From Candidatus Gastranaerophilales bacterium (GTDB lineage: Bacteria > Cyanobacteriota > Vampirovibrionia > Gastranaerophilales > Gastranaerophilaceae): a stretch of 49,782 nucleotides of DNA. Both the position numbers and the translations under genes were made by a program. Below, piece after piece: positions 4,437 to 15,773 of the stretch (position 1 is its first letter; every line of letters starts with the position of its first letter). The stretch covers positions 1-49,782 of the forward strand of contig CALUSW010000006.1 of assembly GCA_944323535.1 (NCBI GenBank), in the 5' to 3' direction. The notes beneath the pieces were generated by a model. It searched no databases. It was not told the DNA's origin and saw only the letters and a program-made list of their open reading frames with translations.

Positions 4437-5588
4437 TTATATTTCTATAAATTCCCCTAAGTCCATTTTGAGTATTTTGTTAATTTCATTAATATTTTTA
4501 GATTTGCCGAAAACAATCGCAAAAAGAGGTTTTGTTTTATAATCTGTTTTTCTTATTTCTAACGGGCTTTCAAGACAGGCAATAAATTTATCATAATTTA
4601 CTGATTTAATCTTATTTTTATCCAAAGACGAAGGAACTTCCGCACTTAAAAAATAATACAGTTCATCTCCCTTATTATCTAAAATATTTTTCCAATCAGG
4701 TTTTTTATCATTCATATAATATTCATAGACATTTATCCCGTATGCCCAATAAGCAAGATCGGTATCGCACCACCCGGCAAAGCGCATCGGATTTACTTCA
4801 ATCGGGATAATATTGTTTCCGTCTGCCCTTAATTCTATATGCATTGGAAAATTCTTTAAATCCGCAGCTTCGCCTATTTTTTCAAGAAGTTCATTAAATC
4901 TGTCCAGATTGTCTTTTATAACCTTTTTTGAAGTATAGTATACCCTGTCTGAAACATCGTTTTCATCCAAAAACGGATGATGAAAAATATTCAGAATAAC
5001 AGCTTCGCCTTTGCTGTTATAGTATGCATCTATAGCAAACTCGTCACCCTCTGCCATTTGTTCTATAAGAAATCTTGAAGAATTTACTACTTCTTTAGGA
5101 AATATATCTTTAAAATTTTGTATATCGCTGCTAAGCTTATTTATTGCGGTGTTAAATTCCTCTTTAGTACGGATCGGATATACTCCGAAACTGAGAAATC
5201 CGATAGCAGGTTTTAATACAAACGGAAATTTAAGTTCTTCAGTATTAAGCTTTTCTAAGTCTTCGTATAAAATTTCTTTATAGTAAAAATCGGGATAAAT
5301 ATTTTTTAATAAATCCCTGAACTTTGCTTTATCTTTAAAGAGTGTAACTTTTTCAGGAATATCTGCAGATTTCAGATTATTCATAATCCATTCAATTGAA
5401 TTTTCCGAATTCGTATATAATTTAAAATTCTGATGATTTTCCGCATAATCGACGGCTTGTTTATCATCAATTAAAACTTCATTAATTCCGAGATTTTCTG
5501 CTGCCGAATTTTTAAGTGTTTTATATTTATTTTTCTTTATTGTATTAACAAGCAGTTCTGAAATATATGGCGGATTTAATATAAACAT
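4437..5588 (-). CDS. ATP-grasp domain carboxylate-amine ligase
   Basis: 383 aa from the ATG at 5588, chosen over an upstream in-frame ATG (5654) because GGAGA sits about 10 nt before it. The ATP-grasp fold is shown by FPFVLKPAIGFLSFGVYPI near residues 120-140 (ATP-binding lysine and glycine loop), IEQMAEGDEFAIDAYY in the middle, and IPIEVNPMRFAGWC near 270 (Mg-binding Glu and Asn). The N-terminal about 100 residues look like the pre-ATP-grasp domain. Enzymes of this class join an acyl phosphate to an amine (peptide, amino acid or nucleotide-precursor ligases). The specific reaction cannot be told. It sits directly upstream of a MATE exporter in one transcription unit. Confidence 0.8.
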   Translation of the reverse strand: MFILNPPYISELLVNTIKKNKYKTLKNSAAENLGINEVLIDDKQAVDYAENHQNFKLYTNSENSIEWIMNNLKSADIPEKVTLFKDKAKFRDLLKNIYPDFYYKEILYEDLEKLNTEELKFPFVLKPAIGFLSFGVYPIRTKEEFNTAINKLSSDIQNFKDIFPKEVVNSSRFLIEQMAEGDEFAIDAYYNSKGEAVILNIFHHPFLDENDVSDRVYYTSKKVIKDNLDRFNELLEKIGEAADLKNFPMHIELRADGNNIIPIEVNPMRFAGWCDTDLAYWAYGINVYEYYMNDKKPDWKNILDNKGDELYYFLSAEVPSSLDKNKIKSVNYDKFIACLESPLEIRKTDYKTKPLFAIVFGKSKNINEINKILKMDLGEFIEI

Positions 5589-9725: not shown

Positions 9726-10364
9726 CTATCCTATTCTTAAGGCAGGATTACCCAGCATATAGCAGTTATCTTTGCAGCCTTTATAAACTGCACTTAACGG
9801 AGCAATTTTATTATAGCTGCCGATTTTAGCACCGGGGAGCAGAATTGAATTTGCACCTATTTGGTTCATATCCCCTGCTTTTACATTTCCTAAAAGCTGA
9901 GAACGCGGACCAAAGAAATTAAAATTGCCGACTTCAACATCATGACCTAAAACAATATTGCCGTTGAACAAATTTCCATTTTTTATTTTAACGTGCGGTG
10001 AAGTAATTCTTGTTGCATTAAAAATATTCCCTTCTCCAACTTCAACATAGTCATTTATATATGAATTAACCGTAATTAATGTATAAAATTTTAAGCCCAT
10101 AGCCTTTAAGTCATAGTATATTTTACTTCTTAATTTTGGATATCCGGCACCAATAACGACATAATCATTTTCTGAAAATTTATGTTCTGACACTTCTCCT
10201 TTATAAAACTTCTGCAAATTAAGATAATCTACCGTATGACCGTAGCCTCCGTGCCCTAGAAAACCTGCAAATTGTATGTCAGGGTTTTGTTTTGAAATAT
10301 CGCTTATATAATTAAAACATTCACGAGCAAAACCATTGCCGCCAACTACATATATTCTTTTCAT
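9726..10364 (-). CDS. PglD/NeuD-type sugar acyltransferase (left-handed beta-helix)
   Basis: 212 aa. The N-terminal alpha/beta domain begins MKRIYVVGGNGFARECF, like the nucleotide-sugar-binding domain of PglD/NeuD. From about residue 95 onward the sequence has hexapeptide-repeat character (ITSPHVKIKNGNLFNGNIVLGHDVEVGNF..., with LLGNVKAGDMNQIG later), a left-handed beta-helix that binds acyl-CoA or acyl-ACP; the family catalytic His is probably the one in VLGHDVEVG. The gene is last in a tight cassette (1 nt after the SDR stop) with an ACP and KASIII, so the donor could be an acyl-ACP and the acceptor an amino- or hydroxy-sugar of a surface glycan. Exact substrates are inferred from context. 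Confidence 0.8.
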   Translation of the reverse strand: MKRIYVVGGNGFARECFNYISDISKQNPDIQFAGFLGHGGYGHTVDYLNLQKFYKGEVSEHKFSENDYVVIGAGYPKLRSKIYYDLKAMGLKFYTLITVNSYINDYVEVGEGNIFNATRITSPHVKIKNGNLFNGNIVLGHDVEVGNFNFFGPRSQLLGNVKAGDMNQIGANSILLPGAKIGSYNKIAPLSAVYKGCKDNCYMLGNPALRIG

Positions 10365-10365
10365 T

Positions 10366-11100
10366 TTACATATACCCGCAATCTATAATATAATTCTGTG
10401 TATTTATCCATTTAGCTTCATATGATAAAAGGAAAACTATCATATTTGATACATCCGTTGCTTCTCCGCATCCAAAAGGATATTTTGAATTTTCTTGTTC
10501 TATCTTATGTGCGGTAAGCGGAGTTTTAACATCGGATGGAGAAACACAATTTATTCGAATACCCTGTGTTTCACTAACTTCTCTTGCAAAACTTTTCATT
10601 GATGCTGCAATTGCTGCTTTTGAACCGCCATAGACTCCGTGCCCTTTATCAGATTTTACTCCTGAAATTGATGATATAACGACAATTGAAGCCCCTTTTC
10701 CTATATTATTTCTTCTGTCACAAAATCCTTTAACCATAAATAACGGAGCAAAATAGTTTATATCAAAAATTTCTTTTGCTTTAGTTAAATCAATTGCCTG
10801 CAATGGTGCAATATTGGCAACTCCGGCACAGTATGCTAATCCTGTAAATTTACCATATTTATTTTTTAATTCTTTTATATAGACAGGTAGTTCTTCTATC
10901 TTTTCTGTTAGGTCTTTTACTTCAATATGAAAATTATCGGGATATTTGCATTTCAATTTTGTTTCATTTAAACGTTCTTTATTTCTTGCAATTGCTATAA
11001 CAGTTGCGCCAAGTTCATTTAGTTGAATGGCAGTAGATTGCCCTAGTCCTGAACTTGCACCTGTTACGATAATGACATCATTTTTCTTAAATGAAATCAT
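10366..11100 (-). CDS. Short-chain dehydrogenase/reductase, FabG-like
   Basis: 244 aa classical SDR: cofactor loop TGASSGLG (13-20), CAG at 91-93 in place of NAG, and the catalytic set Ser144, Tyr157 and Lys161 (YGGSK). Size and motifs fit 3-oxoacyl-ACP reductases. The start overlaps the ACP stop codon (ATGA) and the next gene follows 1 nt after its stop, so it almost certainly works on the product bound to that ACP, reducing a 3-oxoacyl group to a 3-hydroxyacyl group. An alternative is a sugar oxidoreductase in the same glycan pathway. Confidence 0.85.
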   Translation of the reverse strand: MISFKKNDVIIVTGASSGLGQSTAIQLNELGATVIAIARNKERLNETKLKCKYPDNFHIEVKDLTEKIEELPVYIKELKNKYGKFTGLAYCAGVANIAPLQAIDLTKAKEIFDINYFAPLFMVKGFCDRRNNIGKGASIVVISSISGVKSDKGHGVYGGSKAAIAASMKSFAREVSETQGIRINCVSPSDVKTPLTAHKIEQENSKYPFGCGEATDVSNMIVFLLSYEAKWINTQNYIIDCGYM

Positions 11101-11324
11101 TGAATATTTTCTCCGGCAAGTTCAATTAAATCTGAAACGGTTTTAAGTTCGCTTAATTGAGATAAACTGATTTTTATTCCAAATTGTTTATCATAAAAAG
11201 CCATTAGTGCCATTTTTGATAATGAATCCCATTCATCGTAATCTTCAATATTATCTTCAACTTTGCATGAGTCTTCTCTTTGCAAAATATCTTCTAATTC
11301 TGTTAAAAATTCTTCCTGTTTCAT
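11097..11324 (-). CDS. Acyl carrier protein of a dedicated cassette
   Basis: 75 aa from the ATG at 11324. This start is chosen because AAAGGAG lies 6-7 nt upstream; an upstream in-frame ATG (11354) would overlap the KASIII gene. It is acidic with four-helix ACP character. The phosphopantetheine attachment motif is DSL at 33-35 within DEWDSLSKMAL, so Ser34 carries the arm. It is not the fatty-acid-synthesis ACP by context: it lies between a KASIII-like synthase and an SDR, both within a few bases, in a surface-sugar operon. It should carry the acyl chain extended by KASIII and reduced by the SDR before transfer. Confidence 0.88.
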   Translation of the reverse strand: MKQEEFLTELEDILQREDSCKVEDNIEDYDEWDSLSKMALMAFYDKQFGIKISLSQLSELKTVSDLIELAGENIQ

Positions 11325-11326
11325 TT

Positions 11327-12478
11327 TTATTCTCCTTTTATTTTCTTTTTCCAATAGTCAATATATTCTTCTCTTGATTTATGATTTTCATCAGGTTTGT
11401 AATTTCTAATACCCGAGCAATAAATTTTATCTAAATTTAGAACGCATGAAGCTACAGCAAGCCCGTTGCCAAAACCGCAGCATAATATTTTATTTTTATT
11501 TTCCTGAACTTTATCTTTTATATTGAAAGATATTGCTGTAGGAATAGAACAAATTGATTGATTTCCAAGTGCTTCAAAAGAAAAATACGGTGCTTTTTCA
11601 TCATTAAAACCGACTCTGCTGCTTATAGTTTGGACAATTTGTTTGTTTGCCTGATGCAGCATTAAATAGTCAATATCCTCTTTGTTGATTTTAGAATATT
11701 CAATTAATTCTTCAATATTTGGAGGTACGCAATTCATTGTAAAATTAAAAACTGCGATTCCGTCCAGATGTAAATCAACTAATCTTTCTTTGTTTCCGGT
11801 CGGAGTTGTCAGCCATTCTGTTAATTCTTTATCTTTTTCATTGTATAAAAAAGGAAGTCTATAACCCGAAGCAGGTTTTATAATTGCTTCATAGCCTTCA
11901 CTTTTTACGGTTATATTGAAATAAGAGTCATTAATTTCATCACTACAGTACTCAAGAAATGTAGCGCTTCCGCCATCGCCGAAAACAGGTGCAACATTTC
12001 TATCTGCAGGATCAACACCTGATGACGGAGTGTCTCCGGCAAGAAGCAGTACGTTTTTGACTGCTTTAGATTCAATTAAAGAACCTGCGGTATATAATCC
12101 GTATACCCAGCCTGTGCACCCTTGTCTGATATCAAAAGCTATACAATTCTCGCTCAAACCCAATTTATTATGTATGTAATATGCATTGGCAGGCGATGAA
12201 TGATCAGGGCGCTGAACAACAAATATTATTGCATCTATTTGATTTCTATCAAGTTTCATTTCTTTTATCAGAATATCAGCAGCATTTATACATAAATCAG
12301 AAGCAGTTGTACCTTCTTCTACTACTCTTCTTTTATGAAATCCGACTATTTTTCGCATTCTGTCTATTTTTTTTATATTATTGCCATAATATTTTGCCTC
12401 ATCGTATATATTTATTTCTTTTTCCGGAACAACCGTACTCATTCCTTTTATTTTTACATGTTGAAATTTAGAAAACAT
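11327..12478 (-). CDS. 3-oxoacyl-ACP synthase III-like protein
   Basis: 383 aa from the ATG at 12478, with AGGAAG about 8 nt upstream; a TTG two codons earlier overlaps the preceding stop and is too close to that site. Thiolase fold with the KASIII triad in place: Cys121 (RQGCTGW), His275 (LMLHQAN) and Asn306 (LGNQSI). It is longer than housekeeping FabH (about 320 aa), with an insertion around 195-240 and a charged C-terminal tail after about 345. It should condense a short acyl-CoA with a malonyl group on the adjacent ACP. KASIII plus ACP occur together in glycan-modification islands such as the Pseudomonas aeruginosa a-type flagellin locus, which gives a parallel for this cassette. Confidence 0.88.
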   Translation of the reverse strand: MFSKFQHVKIKGMSTVVPEKEINIYDEAKYYGNNIKKIDRMRKIVGFHKRRVVEEGTTASDLCINAADILIKEMKLDRNQIDAIIFVVQRPDHSSPANAYYIHNKLGLSENCIAFDIRQGCTGWVYGLYTAGSLIESKAVKNVLLLAGDTPSSGVDPADRNVAPVFGDGGSATFLEYCSDEINDSYFNITVKSEGYEAIIKPASGYRLPFLYNEKDKELTEWLTTPTGNKERLVDLHLDGIAVFNFTMNCVPPNIEELIEYSKINKEDIDYLMLHQANKQIVQTISSRVGFNDEKAPYFSFEALGNQSICSIPTAISFNIKDKVQENKNKILCCGFGNGLAVASCVLNLDKIYCSGIRNYKPDENHKSREEYIDYWKKKIKGE

Positions 12479-12480
12479 AA

Positions 12481-13602
12481 TCAAACTTCCTCTTTTGTTC
12501 TCTGTCTTTTATTTATATACTTGTAATCCTGTTTTAATTTTGTTATATCTTTTTTGATTAATTTTAGTTTGTTTATTTGTGCATATAATTTCCAGCCAAG
12601 TCTGGTTCCAAAAATTTTTTTGTACTGATTTACTTCTTTTTTATTTACAAATAAGCAAATTTCTTTGTCATATTTAAAATCTAACCAGCTGTTTATTGCA
12701 TACCATTGTTTTATTTTCCAAAATTCTCTTTGATTTTCGTTATATTTGCTTATGACTCCAAAATGAGTATAGTTATAAACAGAAGTTTTCTTGTCTTCAA
12801 AATAGCAATAACCTTTATCTAATGTTGTTAAATATAAATACATGTCTGATAACAACATCTTTTTATACTCTTTTGAATAATCTACAACGTGTCTGTGAAT
12901 TCTTGTACTTGGATGTAAATAGTAAAATCTACCAATAGAAATCGGATTTTTTATATTTTTTGCTTTATGTAATGTATGTTTATAATCGATTTTATTACCT
13001 TTTTCAAGGAAATAGTTATTAGTTCCGTATACGGCATACTCAGGATTCTGTTCTAAAAAATTAATCGCTTTTTCTATTTTATCATTAGTAATCCACCAAT
13101 CATCTCCGTCTATATAGCTCCAATATTTAGTATTTAAACTTCTTATTGCATATCCAAAATGTATACTGTTTGTATTTTTTTTCTGCAAAATATATTCAAT
13201 TTTTTCCGGATATTTTTTTGCATACTCAAAGCAGATTTTTGTTGTTCCGTCAGTCGAAGCATCATCACAAATTTTGATAATATAATCATATTTCGTTTCT
13301 TGAGATAAAAGGCTTTGTATACATTTTTCTATTGTTGTTTTATGATTGTATGTTAACAATATAATAGTAAGTATTGGATTTTTATTTTTTCTGTTTTTAT
13401 TTAATTCGTCAATTACAGATTTATATTCATAATATTTTGCGAGTTTCTTTTCTTCTTTCTTTTGTTTGAAAAATTCAAGTTTCTCTTTATTTGGTATAGT
13501 GTATTTAAAAATTCCTATCGAATATCTTCTTTTATACCTGTTTAAAAAAGAATTATTAAGATTACTTATACGTAAAAACTTACTTCTATACGGCTTTTTC
13601 AT
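12481..13602 (-). CDS. Family 2 glycosyltransferase
   Basis: 373 aa. After a basic N-terminal extension of about 75 residues, the GT-A fold begins with ILLTYNH (81-87). The nucleotide-sugar-binding motif DDASTDGT is at 113-120 and the metal-binding DGDD at 165-168. The C-terminal 180 residues are aromatic and lysine-rich with no membrane helix. It transfers a sugar (type unknown) to a growing surface polysaccharide or glycoprotein at the cytoplasmic face. AGAGG lies 5 nt before the start, and the gene sits 8 nt after the radical SAM gene and overlaps the KASIII region at its stop, so all are one operon. Confidence 0.9.
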   Translation of the reverse strand: MKKPYRSKFLRISNLNNSFLNRYKRRYSIGIFKYTIPNKEKLEFFKQKKEEKKLAKYYEYKSVIDELNKNRKNKNPILTIILLTYNHKTTIEKCIQSLLSQETKYDYIIKICDDASTDGTTKICFEYAKKYPEKIEYILQKKNTNSIHFGYAIRSLNTKYWSYIDGDDWWITNDKIEKAINFLEQNPEYAVYGTNNYFLEKGNKIDYKHTLHKAKNIKNPISIGRFYYLHPSTRIHRHVVDYSKEYKKMLLSDMYLYLTTLDKGYCYFEDKKTSVYNYTHFGVISKYNENQREFWKIKQWYAINSWLDFKYDKEICLFVNKKEVNQYKKIFGTRLGWKLYAQINKLKLIKKDITKLKQDYKYINKRQRTKEEV

Positions 13603-13610
13603 ATTTACCT

Positions 13611-14972
13611 CTATGCTTCAAATCCGTATTTTCTGTCAAATTCTTCTTTAGATATCGGTCTTGCAGATACACAATTTTTCATACAACCTTCATATTTTTC
13701 AGACATATATTCTTTTCTTAATTTTCTTCTATGTAAGTCATTAAAAAGAAGATTGAAATCTAATTTATCATTTTTAATATAATTTTTTATGTTATATACT
13801 TTTTTAAATGGTCTCCAAGCACAGACTTCCATCATTCCATCAGTGTACAAGCGTATGTGATTCCAAGGATTTTCGCATATCATTCTTCCCTTATATTCAC
13901 GTTTATGCCAACAAGCACCTTCTACATGTTCAAAATAAGTTAAAAGTTTTTTCCCGTATTTTTTTCTAATCTGTGTTCTCTCGTTGTATAATTCTTTAAT
14001 ATCTTTAAAATTTTTAGCTATAGCCCATATATCGGCATATTTTTCTTGTAAACTTTCTATGCTTATTTTTTCTACTTTCTTTTCATATTCAGATAAATTT
14101 GCGGGCATAAAAATTCTAAAGTAAAAATAAACTTTTCCTTTTAATAATTTTTCAAGTTCTAAAACTGTCATCAGCGCTTCATCAAAACCCGATTTATCTT
14201 TAATATATGTGTTCTTTAATGGGTTTTCCCGATGATCAAAATAAAAACCGAAGCTTTGTAAATTCCAGTTTATTCCCATTTTTACGAAATCTCTTGCGAT
14301 ATGGTAATTTGTTGAATTTAGTACACTTGATATACTCGGCTTAAAAGAAGAAAGTCCTCTTTCTTGCAAATAAATTATATAGTTTTCTATATTGTTTTTT
14401 ATTGTAGTGAATACTCTGTCTTTTTCCCATACAGTTTTCTTAAAGGTTTCTTCATCGATTGCATTTACAGAAAATTTGACAACCATTAAACTTTTTGCCG
14501 CAAGTTCAAACCACCTTTTATTAAATGCAATACCGTTTGTTTCAATAAAGAAATTTATATGCGGATAATGCTCATTTATCCATTTTAAATATTCATAGCC
14601 TTCTTTACAATGCGTAATTTCGCCATATGTCGGAATAATTGTCTTTGTTTTTTCATATAAAGGCTCAAGATATTTATATAGCATATCTTGTGAAATCATT
14701 TGTCTGGTTTGTCTTGTTTGATTGTTTGCACTGCAAAATTTACATCTGCAATTACAATCATTATTGAACATTAATTGAAGGGTAATATCATCAGGAATTC
14801 CTATATATAAAGAAGGATCATGCATAATTTTGTAGTTTTCATAGGCTTCTTTGAATTTTTCAATATCATCCCTTTTTATTTTTATTCTTGTGCCTAAAAC
14901 CGTAATTACTTTATGTGTTTTTTCTTTATTATTTTTAACCGAAAATATTGCTTCAAGTGTTTTATTACTCAT
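13611..14972 (-). CDS. Radical SAM protein with SPASM-like C-terminus
   Basis: 453 aa. The CxxxCxxC motif is C73-C77-C80 (CNCRCKFC). About 30 residues later the sequence shows the TYGEITHCKEGYEY stretch of the SAM-binding region. A C-terminal set of cysteines (EGACWHKRE, GRMICENPW, MMEVCAWRPF, YEGCMKNCVS) looks like a SPASM/Twitch auxiliary Fe-S cluster domain. The N-terminal 55 residues are an extra domain. Relatives modify peptides or carry out chemistry on sugars or lipids. Its place between two GT2 genes at the head of the acyl-sugar cassette suggests a role in making or modifying the surface glycan; the reaction is unknown. AAAGGAG precedes the start. Confidence 0.85.
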   Translation of the reverse strand: MSNKTLEAIFSVKNNKEKTHKVITVLGTRIKIKRDDIEKFKEAYENYKIMHDPSLYIGIPDDITLQLMFNNDCNCRCKFCSANNQTRQTRQMISQDMLYKYLEPLYEKTKTIIPTYGEITHCKEGYEYLKWINEHYPHINFFIETNGIAFNKRWFELAAKSLMVVKFSVNAIDEETFKKTVWEKDRVFTTIKNNIENYIIYLQERGLSSFKPSISSVLNSTNYHIARDFVKMGINWNLQSFGFYFDHRENPLKNTYIKDKSGFDEALMTVLELEKLLKGKVYFYFRIFMPANLSEYEKKVEKISIESLQEKYADIWAIAKNFKDIKELYNERTQIRKKYGKKLLTYFEHVEGACWHKREYKGRMICENPWNHIRLYTDGMMEVCAWRPFKKVYNIKNYIKNDKLDFNLLFNDLHRRKLRKEYMSEKYEGCMKNCVSARPISKEEFDRKYGFEA

Positions 14973-14997: not shown

Positions 14998-15389
14998 CTA
15001 TTCTTTTGAAAAAAGTATCAAAGGGGATGATACAGACATCAAAAAAACAGCATATCCGGCGCTTGCTTTTTCGCATAAATCCATAAAATTCGCAAGGCAG
15101 CCCATGTTTTGCTGTCTTCTTATGTGTTTTATAATATCCGGATACTTTTTTGAATATTGCGATACTATTTCGCTTGTTCCGTCTGTTGAGCAGTCATCAC
15201 CTACCAAAACTTCAAATTCAAAGTTGGTTTTCTGCATTAAAAAACTGTTAAGAGCGTCACTTATATAATCTTTTTGGTTATATGTTACACATATAATCTG
15301 TACTACAGGGGTGTTATCGGAGTTGTGGCTTAAAAATCCCCCCCCCCGTTGGAATTTTGTTTATTTATAGAATGGTATTTATTTTTCAT
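14998..15389 (-). pseudogene. Truncated family 2 glycosyltransferase, frame interrupted by a G10 run
   Basis: An ATG at 15389 opens a frame (MKNKYHSINKQNSN then glycines) that reaches ten consecutive G (15347-15338 on this strand) and stops at TAA 15332-15330. The GT2 sequence starts in the frame used after the tract: FLSHNSDNTPVVQIICVTYNQ, then VLVGDDCSTDGT. A tract of eight or eleven G would join the two frames exactly, so expression may switch by slippage. The other end is short too: the frame ends at TAG 15000-14998 where GT2 enzymes normally continue with the DxD metal site and about 150 more residues. The product would be about 130 aa, so it is probably a broken remnant, or a sequencing error in the homopolymer adds to the damage. 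Confidence 0.7.
15338..15347. repeat. Homopolymer of ten C (G10 on the coding strand)
   Basis: The only C/G run of this length in an otherwise A/T-rich window. It lies about 15 codons after a start codon of a glycosyltransferase frame, the typical position of a slippage tract. See the glycosyltransferase fragment. Confidence 0.95.
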
Positions 15390-15515
15390 AAATTATAGTA
15401 ATCTCCAAGACAACATGATTAAATAATAAAAGTTAGATAATGTAAACTTATAAATTACATTTAGTAACAAATTATTAATCTTAGAAGCTTGATGTTTTTG
15501 TTTCTAACTGATAAG

Positions 15516-15662
15516 CCCCTGAAACAGTCTTGAATTTTCCTTACGGCTCAGGCAATCCGTTGCATTTCGTAAAAACTTTTCAGTTTTTACTACATTTCAC
15601 CTGCCTCTCGCCTTTTCAGCATTCCGCTTCGCTTCAGCTTACGGAAAATCCGCAGTTCAGGG
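15516..15662. repeat. Intergenic element with imperfect terminal inverted repeats (MITE-like)
   Basis: The left end CCCCTGAA...ATTTTCC and the right end GGAAAATCC...TTCAGGG are inverted copies with a few mismatches. Inside is a perfect 8-bp hairpin (GTAAAAAC, loop TTTTCA, GTTTTTAC) near 15568-15589. The block is GC-richer than its flanks and has no gene. With the next hairpin it fills the 384-nt space between the glycosyltransferase fragment and ribF; the rest (15390-15515) is A/T-rich and featureless. It looks like a dispersed non-coding repeat. Confidence 0.5.
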
Positions 15663-15682
15663 TGACAGGGTGGTTTAATGTC

Positions 15683-15703
15683 ATCCCGAACTCGTTTCGG
15701 GAT
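15683..15703. repeat. Palindromic repeat ATCCCGAA-n5-TTCGGGAT
   Basis: A perfect 8-bp stem with loop CTCGT. This consensus (hairpins like TCATCCCGAA...TTCGGGATCT) is a common kind of dispersed intergenic palindrome in bacteria. It could also act as a weak terminator after ribF, but no T run follows. Confidence 0.6.
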
Positions 15704-15773
15704 CTTACCGGAAAACATCTATAGCGCCAGATTGGCAAGCTCCAGAAAGAAATCAGGGTGATAGTTTAAAACT

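Follow-up and report, generated by a model that had tools for sequence, protein, structure and literature searches.

A poly-G tract parting a start codon from a truncated glycosyltransferase frame in a Gastranaerophilales genome is probably a vestigial phase-variation switch

Analysis of the window (the whole stretch of 49,782 nucleotides) located a G10 tract at the head of a probable acyl-sugar operon, at the point where a start codon and a family 2 glycosyltransferase (GT2) reading part company (Table 1). In the present frame, the ATG at 15387-15389, 14 codons ahead of the tract, opens the peptide MKNKYHSINKQNSN, which continues through three glycines, D and F to a TAA at 15330-15332. The GT2 sequence is read in a different frame (15001-15336, closed by a TAG at 14998-15000), which holds no ATG, GTG or TTG between the tract and the conserved core (VVQIICVTYNQ); its earliest in-frame start codon sits within the core itself, so an intact protein would need a start upstream of the tract. 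Coordinates and frames confirm the separation of start codon and GT2 frame described in an earlier note on this DNA, and its arithmetic, by which eight or eleven G would rejoin the two, is correct. The tract has two properties of a phase-variable locus: it is placed where one base more or less shifts the frame of the gene, and it is unbroken, beyond chance length and long enough to slip. The sole Shine-Dalgarno-like GGAG lies 13 bases from the ATG, and a scan for sigma-70 promoters 5' of this codon returned no match. Between ribF and the tract gene lies an intergenic repeat (15502-15711) with two dozen BLAST matches in the genome, the longest at about 89-96% identity, and with related copies in the relative G016.

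Table 1. Coordinates of the tract, the frames around it and the downstream genes in the window, followed by the other long G/C tracts of the genome (contig:position, with locus coordinates in brackets).
Feature	Position	Strand	Remarks
G10 homopolymeric tract, slippage-type	15338-15347	-	Uninterrupted
Frame-OFF product, as now read from ATG 15389 across the tract as far as TAA	15330-15389	-	MKNKYHSINKQNSNGGGDF*
GT2 frame after the tract	14998-15336	-	112 codons, N-terminal half of GT2 domain (Pfam PF00535), then TAG
End of homology to intact orthologues	14998-15047	-	T7 at 15041-15047, then ~40 bp of unrelated sequence
Radical SAM protein	13611-14972	-	Next operon gene
Second GT2	12481-13602	-	No tract
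3-Oxoacyl-ACP synthase III-like (KASIII)	11327-12484	-	
Acyl carrier protein (ACP)	11097-11354	-	
Short-chain dehydrogenase/reductase (SDR)	10366-11100	-	
Hexapeptide (LbH) acyltransferase-like	9726-10364	-	
G10	C10:27359 (L018:3360-3369)		9 bases before GTG of GT10 fucosyltransferase, clpP adjoining
C10	C15:32897 (L019:3898-3907)		Parts N-terminal stretch from rest of ALGX/DHHW acetyltransferase-like gene, out of frame
G12	C54:7252 (L020:3753-3764)		In short ORF upstream of radical SAM-like gene
Tract	C95:1528		Between two small genes, FMN-reductase/hydrolase cluster

The Pfam PF00535 match of the frame behind the tract (E 9.9e-18) covers profile positions 2-85 of 168, which confirms the truncated protein end remarked on in the earlier note. 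This stub keeps GDDCSTDGT and lacks the second DxD (CDGDD) and everything beyond it; it is thus not a complete GT-A domain with both acidic motifs, as a functional GT2 would be. Frame restoration would yield only ~125 residues, and with half a GT2 domain and the second DxD missing the ON state would be unlikely to give a functional protein. Three intact orthologues with full-length frames of ~780 aa are found in the genomes G004, G210 and G403, to whose start the stub is 63-68% identical (66, 68 and 63%); as closest relatives of the stub they match at 76% (G403), 78% (G210) and 70% (G004), and that of G004 is a fusion of GT2 and CDP-glycerol glycerophosphotransferase (PF00535 + PF04464). Their second DxD begins where homology to the stub stops, and all three begin a few residues ahead of the core and are free of tracts. 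No orthologue carrying the same tract was found among 363 genomes of the family, the three closest being tract-free; homologous tracts of other lengths in the same gene of relatives were found for other genes of the lineage, not for the window gene. A search of the genome for a second copy of the missing GT2 half found none. Comparison by eye showed no homology between the final ~40 bp of the stub and the 3' end of the intact gene in G004. In the part that aligns with G004, dN is 0.16 and dS is saturated, which points to selection over most of the gene's history and to a truncation that is recent relative to the divergence. The proposal that tract switching turns on a working glycosyltransferase is therefore not supported here, because the gene ends at the second DxD, the intact orthologues lack the tract and the lost half is absent from the genome.

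The assignment of the tract to the head of an acyl-sugar operon is borne out by the genes that follow, a set that would suit the making and attachment of an acylated sugar. Orthologues of four of these genes lie together on contig 13 of the rabbit MAG G030 (KASIII 77%, ACP 63%, SDR 68% and hexapeptide protein 77%), in a cluster that likewise includes radical SAM and GT2 genes and is preceded by six tracts within 20 kb. G030 and G021 each carry an in-frame G9 in their radical SAM homologue, at the same codon, and the KASIII homologue of G040 has a G10 immediately before its start codon. A search with the radical SAM protein led to named relatives, which are MAGs of Candidatus Gastranaerophilales; 'Lapin' (rabbit) appears in the isolate names of two.

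Counting of exact G/C run lengths of at least 6 across the 1.90 Mb genome gave 15 runs of 6, none of 7-9, four of 10 and one of 12, so that the five runs of at least 8 measure 10, 10, 10, 10 and 12. A first-order model built on the composition of the window predicts 95 runs of at least 6 and 0.10 of at least 10. Runs of 6-9 are depleted and runs of at least 10 are in excess, and the G10 is not a product of chance; when the window was shuffled 100 times by dinucleotides, its observed count of G8 windows was never reached. Four of the five tracts lie in or beside surface-sugar or biosynthetic genes. The tract before the fucosyltransferase is at Shine-Dalgarno distance, and the one before the G040 KASIII gene (L137:5351) is placed similarly. 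An MBOAT-like gene downstream of the ALGX/DHHW tract is likewise in two pieces, and on C54 a run of A's splits the radical SAM-like gene in its turn (L020, about 4979-5097).

Long tracts are a property of the lineage: G runs of at least 9 occur in 36 of 41 genomes of the genus. Across the class sample, tracts of at least 9 number 0-176 per genome in the same family, with genera g18 and g19 near zero and g2, g3 and g6 at dozens to more than 100; most other families of the class have few. Some of these raw counts are inflated by contig-end G runs in G007 and G008. Runs of more than 20 G, some at contig ends, were seen in G007:C108 and G008:C55 and C60, and are probably artefacts of two-colour sequencing. 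Run-length curves from samples of 140-400 kb of four relatives (G016, G029, G030 and G032), not chosen for glycan genes, dip at 6-8, where counts are close to zero, and rise to a hump at 9-11. In 260 kb of G016 there were 1, 0, 9, 10 and 3 runs of length 7, 8, 9, 10 and 11, in stretches partly picked from a list of tract places, which biases density upwards and leaves the shape of the curve unbiased. The 400 kb of G029 held 7, 0, 2, 6, 1 and 2 runs of length 6 to 11, and the samples of G030 and G032 one tract each. The reading frame is broken between halves of at least 60 residues at 7 of 36 genic tracts, a figure to which 5'-proximal breaks like that of the window come in addition, versus 2 of 549 runs of 4-5 G or C (Fisher p 6e-8). 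Among 61 tract-linked ORFs, prepilin N_methyl (9), ALGX/DHHW (4) and acyltransferase 3 (Acyl_transf_3; 3) families stand beside methyltransferases, TupA ATP-grasp, GT2, FkbM, hexapeptide, LicD and MmeI-type methylase families, whereas 61 random ORFs were mostly housekeeping. A G13 at position 1501 of locus L065 in G027 is in frame within an MmeI-type restriction-modification protein, a candidate phase-variable methylase.

At several sites the same position carries tracts of different length in relatives or paralogues. In G016, nine prepilin-like paralogues begin with an ATG and about seven codons, followed by a tract 9, 10 or 11 long (C9 in one case) and a FTLAEVLITLVIIG motif. On manual reading the G11 copy alone is in frame; an automated frame call also marked L181 as in frame, owing to an ATG three codons before its tract. 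Loci of this family include L176, L177, L180, L181, L184, L186 and L187 on G016 contigs 1 and 2. One GT2 gene bears two tracts, which measure 11 and 10 in G030, 10 and 10 in G021 and 9 and 11 in G028; the first lies upstream of the start and the second at the 3' end. The upstream tracts (L138:2950, L140:3288 and L117:2751) lie about 30 bases upstream of a TATAAT box, and transcriptional phase variation in these three species is possible. Among the ALGX/DHHW genes of G033 and G030 a C9 recurs at one and the same codon; two copies are in frame there and one is out of frame.

Loss of mismatch repair was considered as a general cause of the tracts and rejected, since MutS1 and MutL were found in the window's own genome and in most relatives. 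G016, which has the highest count among the genus genomes counted (119 tracts of at least 9, most preceded by C), has MutS1 and gave no MutL hit; G006 likewise gave no MutL hit, yet has almost no tracts. Some other phase-varying genera, for example Neisseria, likewise have MutS1 and MutL.

We interpret the G10 as most probably a tract of the slipped-strand-mispairing, phase-variation type. This lineage would have gained it at the 5' end of a GT2-glycerophosphotransferase gene that heads a surface acyl-glycan operon, and it would be one member of a lineage-wide contingency set. Replication slippage would alter the length of such G/C tracts by one and move genes in or out of frame, presumably also in living populations; the window copy would now be OFF and, the 3' part of the gene being lost as well, the switch is probably vestigial. 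A surface role for the glycan is likewise presumed, and the likely order of events is gain of the tract and then truncation. Against this interpretation stand the tract-free orthologues, by which the site is not conserved, the 13-base distance of the sole Shine-Dalgarno-like site from the ATG, and the presence of MutS1 and MutL, which would lower slippage; in an assembly of 121 contigs, a local misjoin or an error of one in tract length is also possible. For the phase variation suggested in the earlier note, the type of tract, the tract-rich lineage and the proximity of the orthologous operon to many tracts speak in favour, and the part without support is the switching of a working enzyme at this locus.

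It is unlikely that the switch is still in use, with tract length deciding whether ribosomes cross the stub to its end and thereby tuning the downstream operon via translational coupling or polarity, or with the short GT2-fold peptide functional in itself. This would explain why the tract is uninterrupted although the genome has no G runs of 7-9, why the GT2 frame is still open over its whole length and why the stub ends only 25 bp before the radical SAM start, but a GT2 domain cut to half, with the second DxD gone, is an unlikely enzyme, the coding strand of the stub showed no terminator-like site, and the radical SAM gene has its own AAGGAG site. We regard as improbable an artefact of short-read metagenome assembly, in which tract length or truncation would stem from collapsed or misjoined GT2 copies: the fragmentation of the assembly, several further GT2 genes in the genome and the contig-end runs of G007 and G008 are compatible with it, but the tract lies inside a contig of 49.8 kb and its flanks are unique, the lost half of the domain was found nowhere else in the genome, and independent assemblies show homologous tracts at the same codon. 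The least likely alternative, a neutral stretch of G in a dead gene that never took part in switching, would suit the truncation and the tract-free orthologues, but is hard to reconcile with five runs of at least 10 versus 0.1 expected and none of 7-9, mostly at surface-sugar or biosynthetic genes that include the frame-broken ALGX/DHHW gene and the fucosyltransferase.

Beyond the vestigial switch itself, we hold with somewhat greater confidence that Gastranaerophilales, which are relatives of the cyanobacteria, run a large poly-G phase-variation programme. It would comprise more than 100 loci in the richest genomes and act on surface glycans, O-acetylation, pseudopilins and DNA methylases, mismatch-repair genes being present in most genomes, and the window locus would be a decayed part of it. 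If so, a common and almost uncultured gut lineage uses hypermutable switches that have been described mainly in mucosal pathogens, which would imply strong diversifying pressure on a commensal from phage, immunity or mucus. In the open-access literature we found no paper that joins Gastranaerophilales with phase variation, a Melainabacteria match being concerned with flagellins; most subscription journals lie outside this scope and novelty is provisional. The window gene is of little weight beyond pointing to the lineage-wide pattern, and better targets are the prepilin tracts of G016 and the glycan cluster of G030.

Among known systems, the GT2-CDP-glycerol glycerophosphotransferase fusion (PF00535 + PF04464) is matched by the stub at the start of its intact orthologues, but the stub is half a GT2 domain without the second DxD and without PF04464. 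Simple sequence repeats in Helicobacter canadensis give phase-variable expression and C-terminal switching (PMC2823697); they resemble the present tracts in being homopolymeric and in some cases near gene 3' ends, a placement shared by tracts in G030, G021 and G028 (GT2 and radical SAM genes), whereas the window tract is 5'-proximal and its gene truncated. The Campylobacter phasome, the nearest system so far described, with many poly-G/C phase-variable genes per genome (PhasomeIt, PMC6321876), differs in that the tracts described here belong to an unrelated phylum, the non-photosynthetic Cyanobacteriota, with MutS1 and MutL present and, in G016, a prepilin family under putative tract control. 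In both, the genomes are AT-rich and their frame-shifting poly-G/C tracts concern mainly genes for surface structures, of which tract-free homologues exist.
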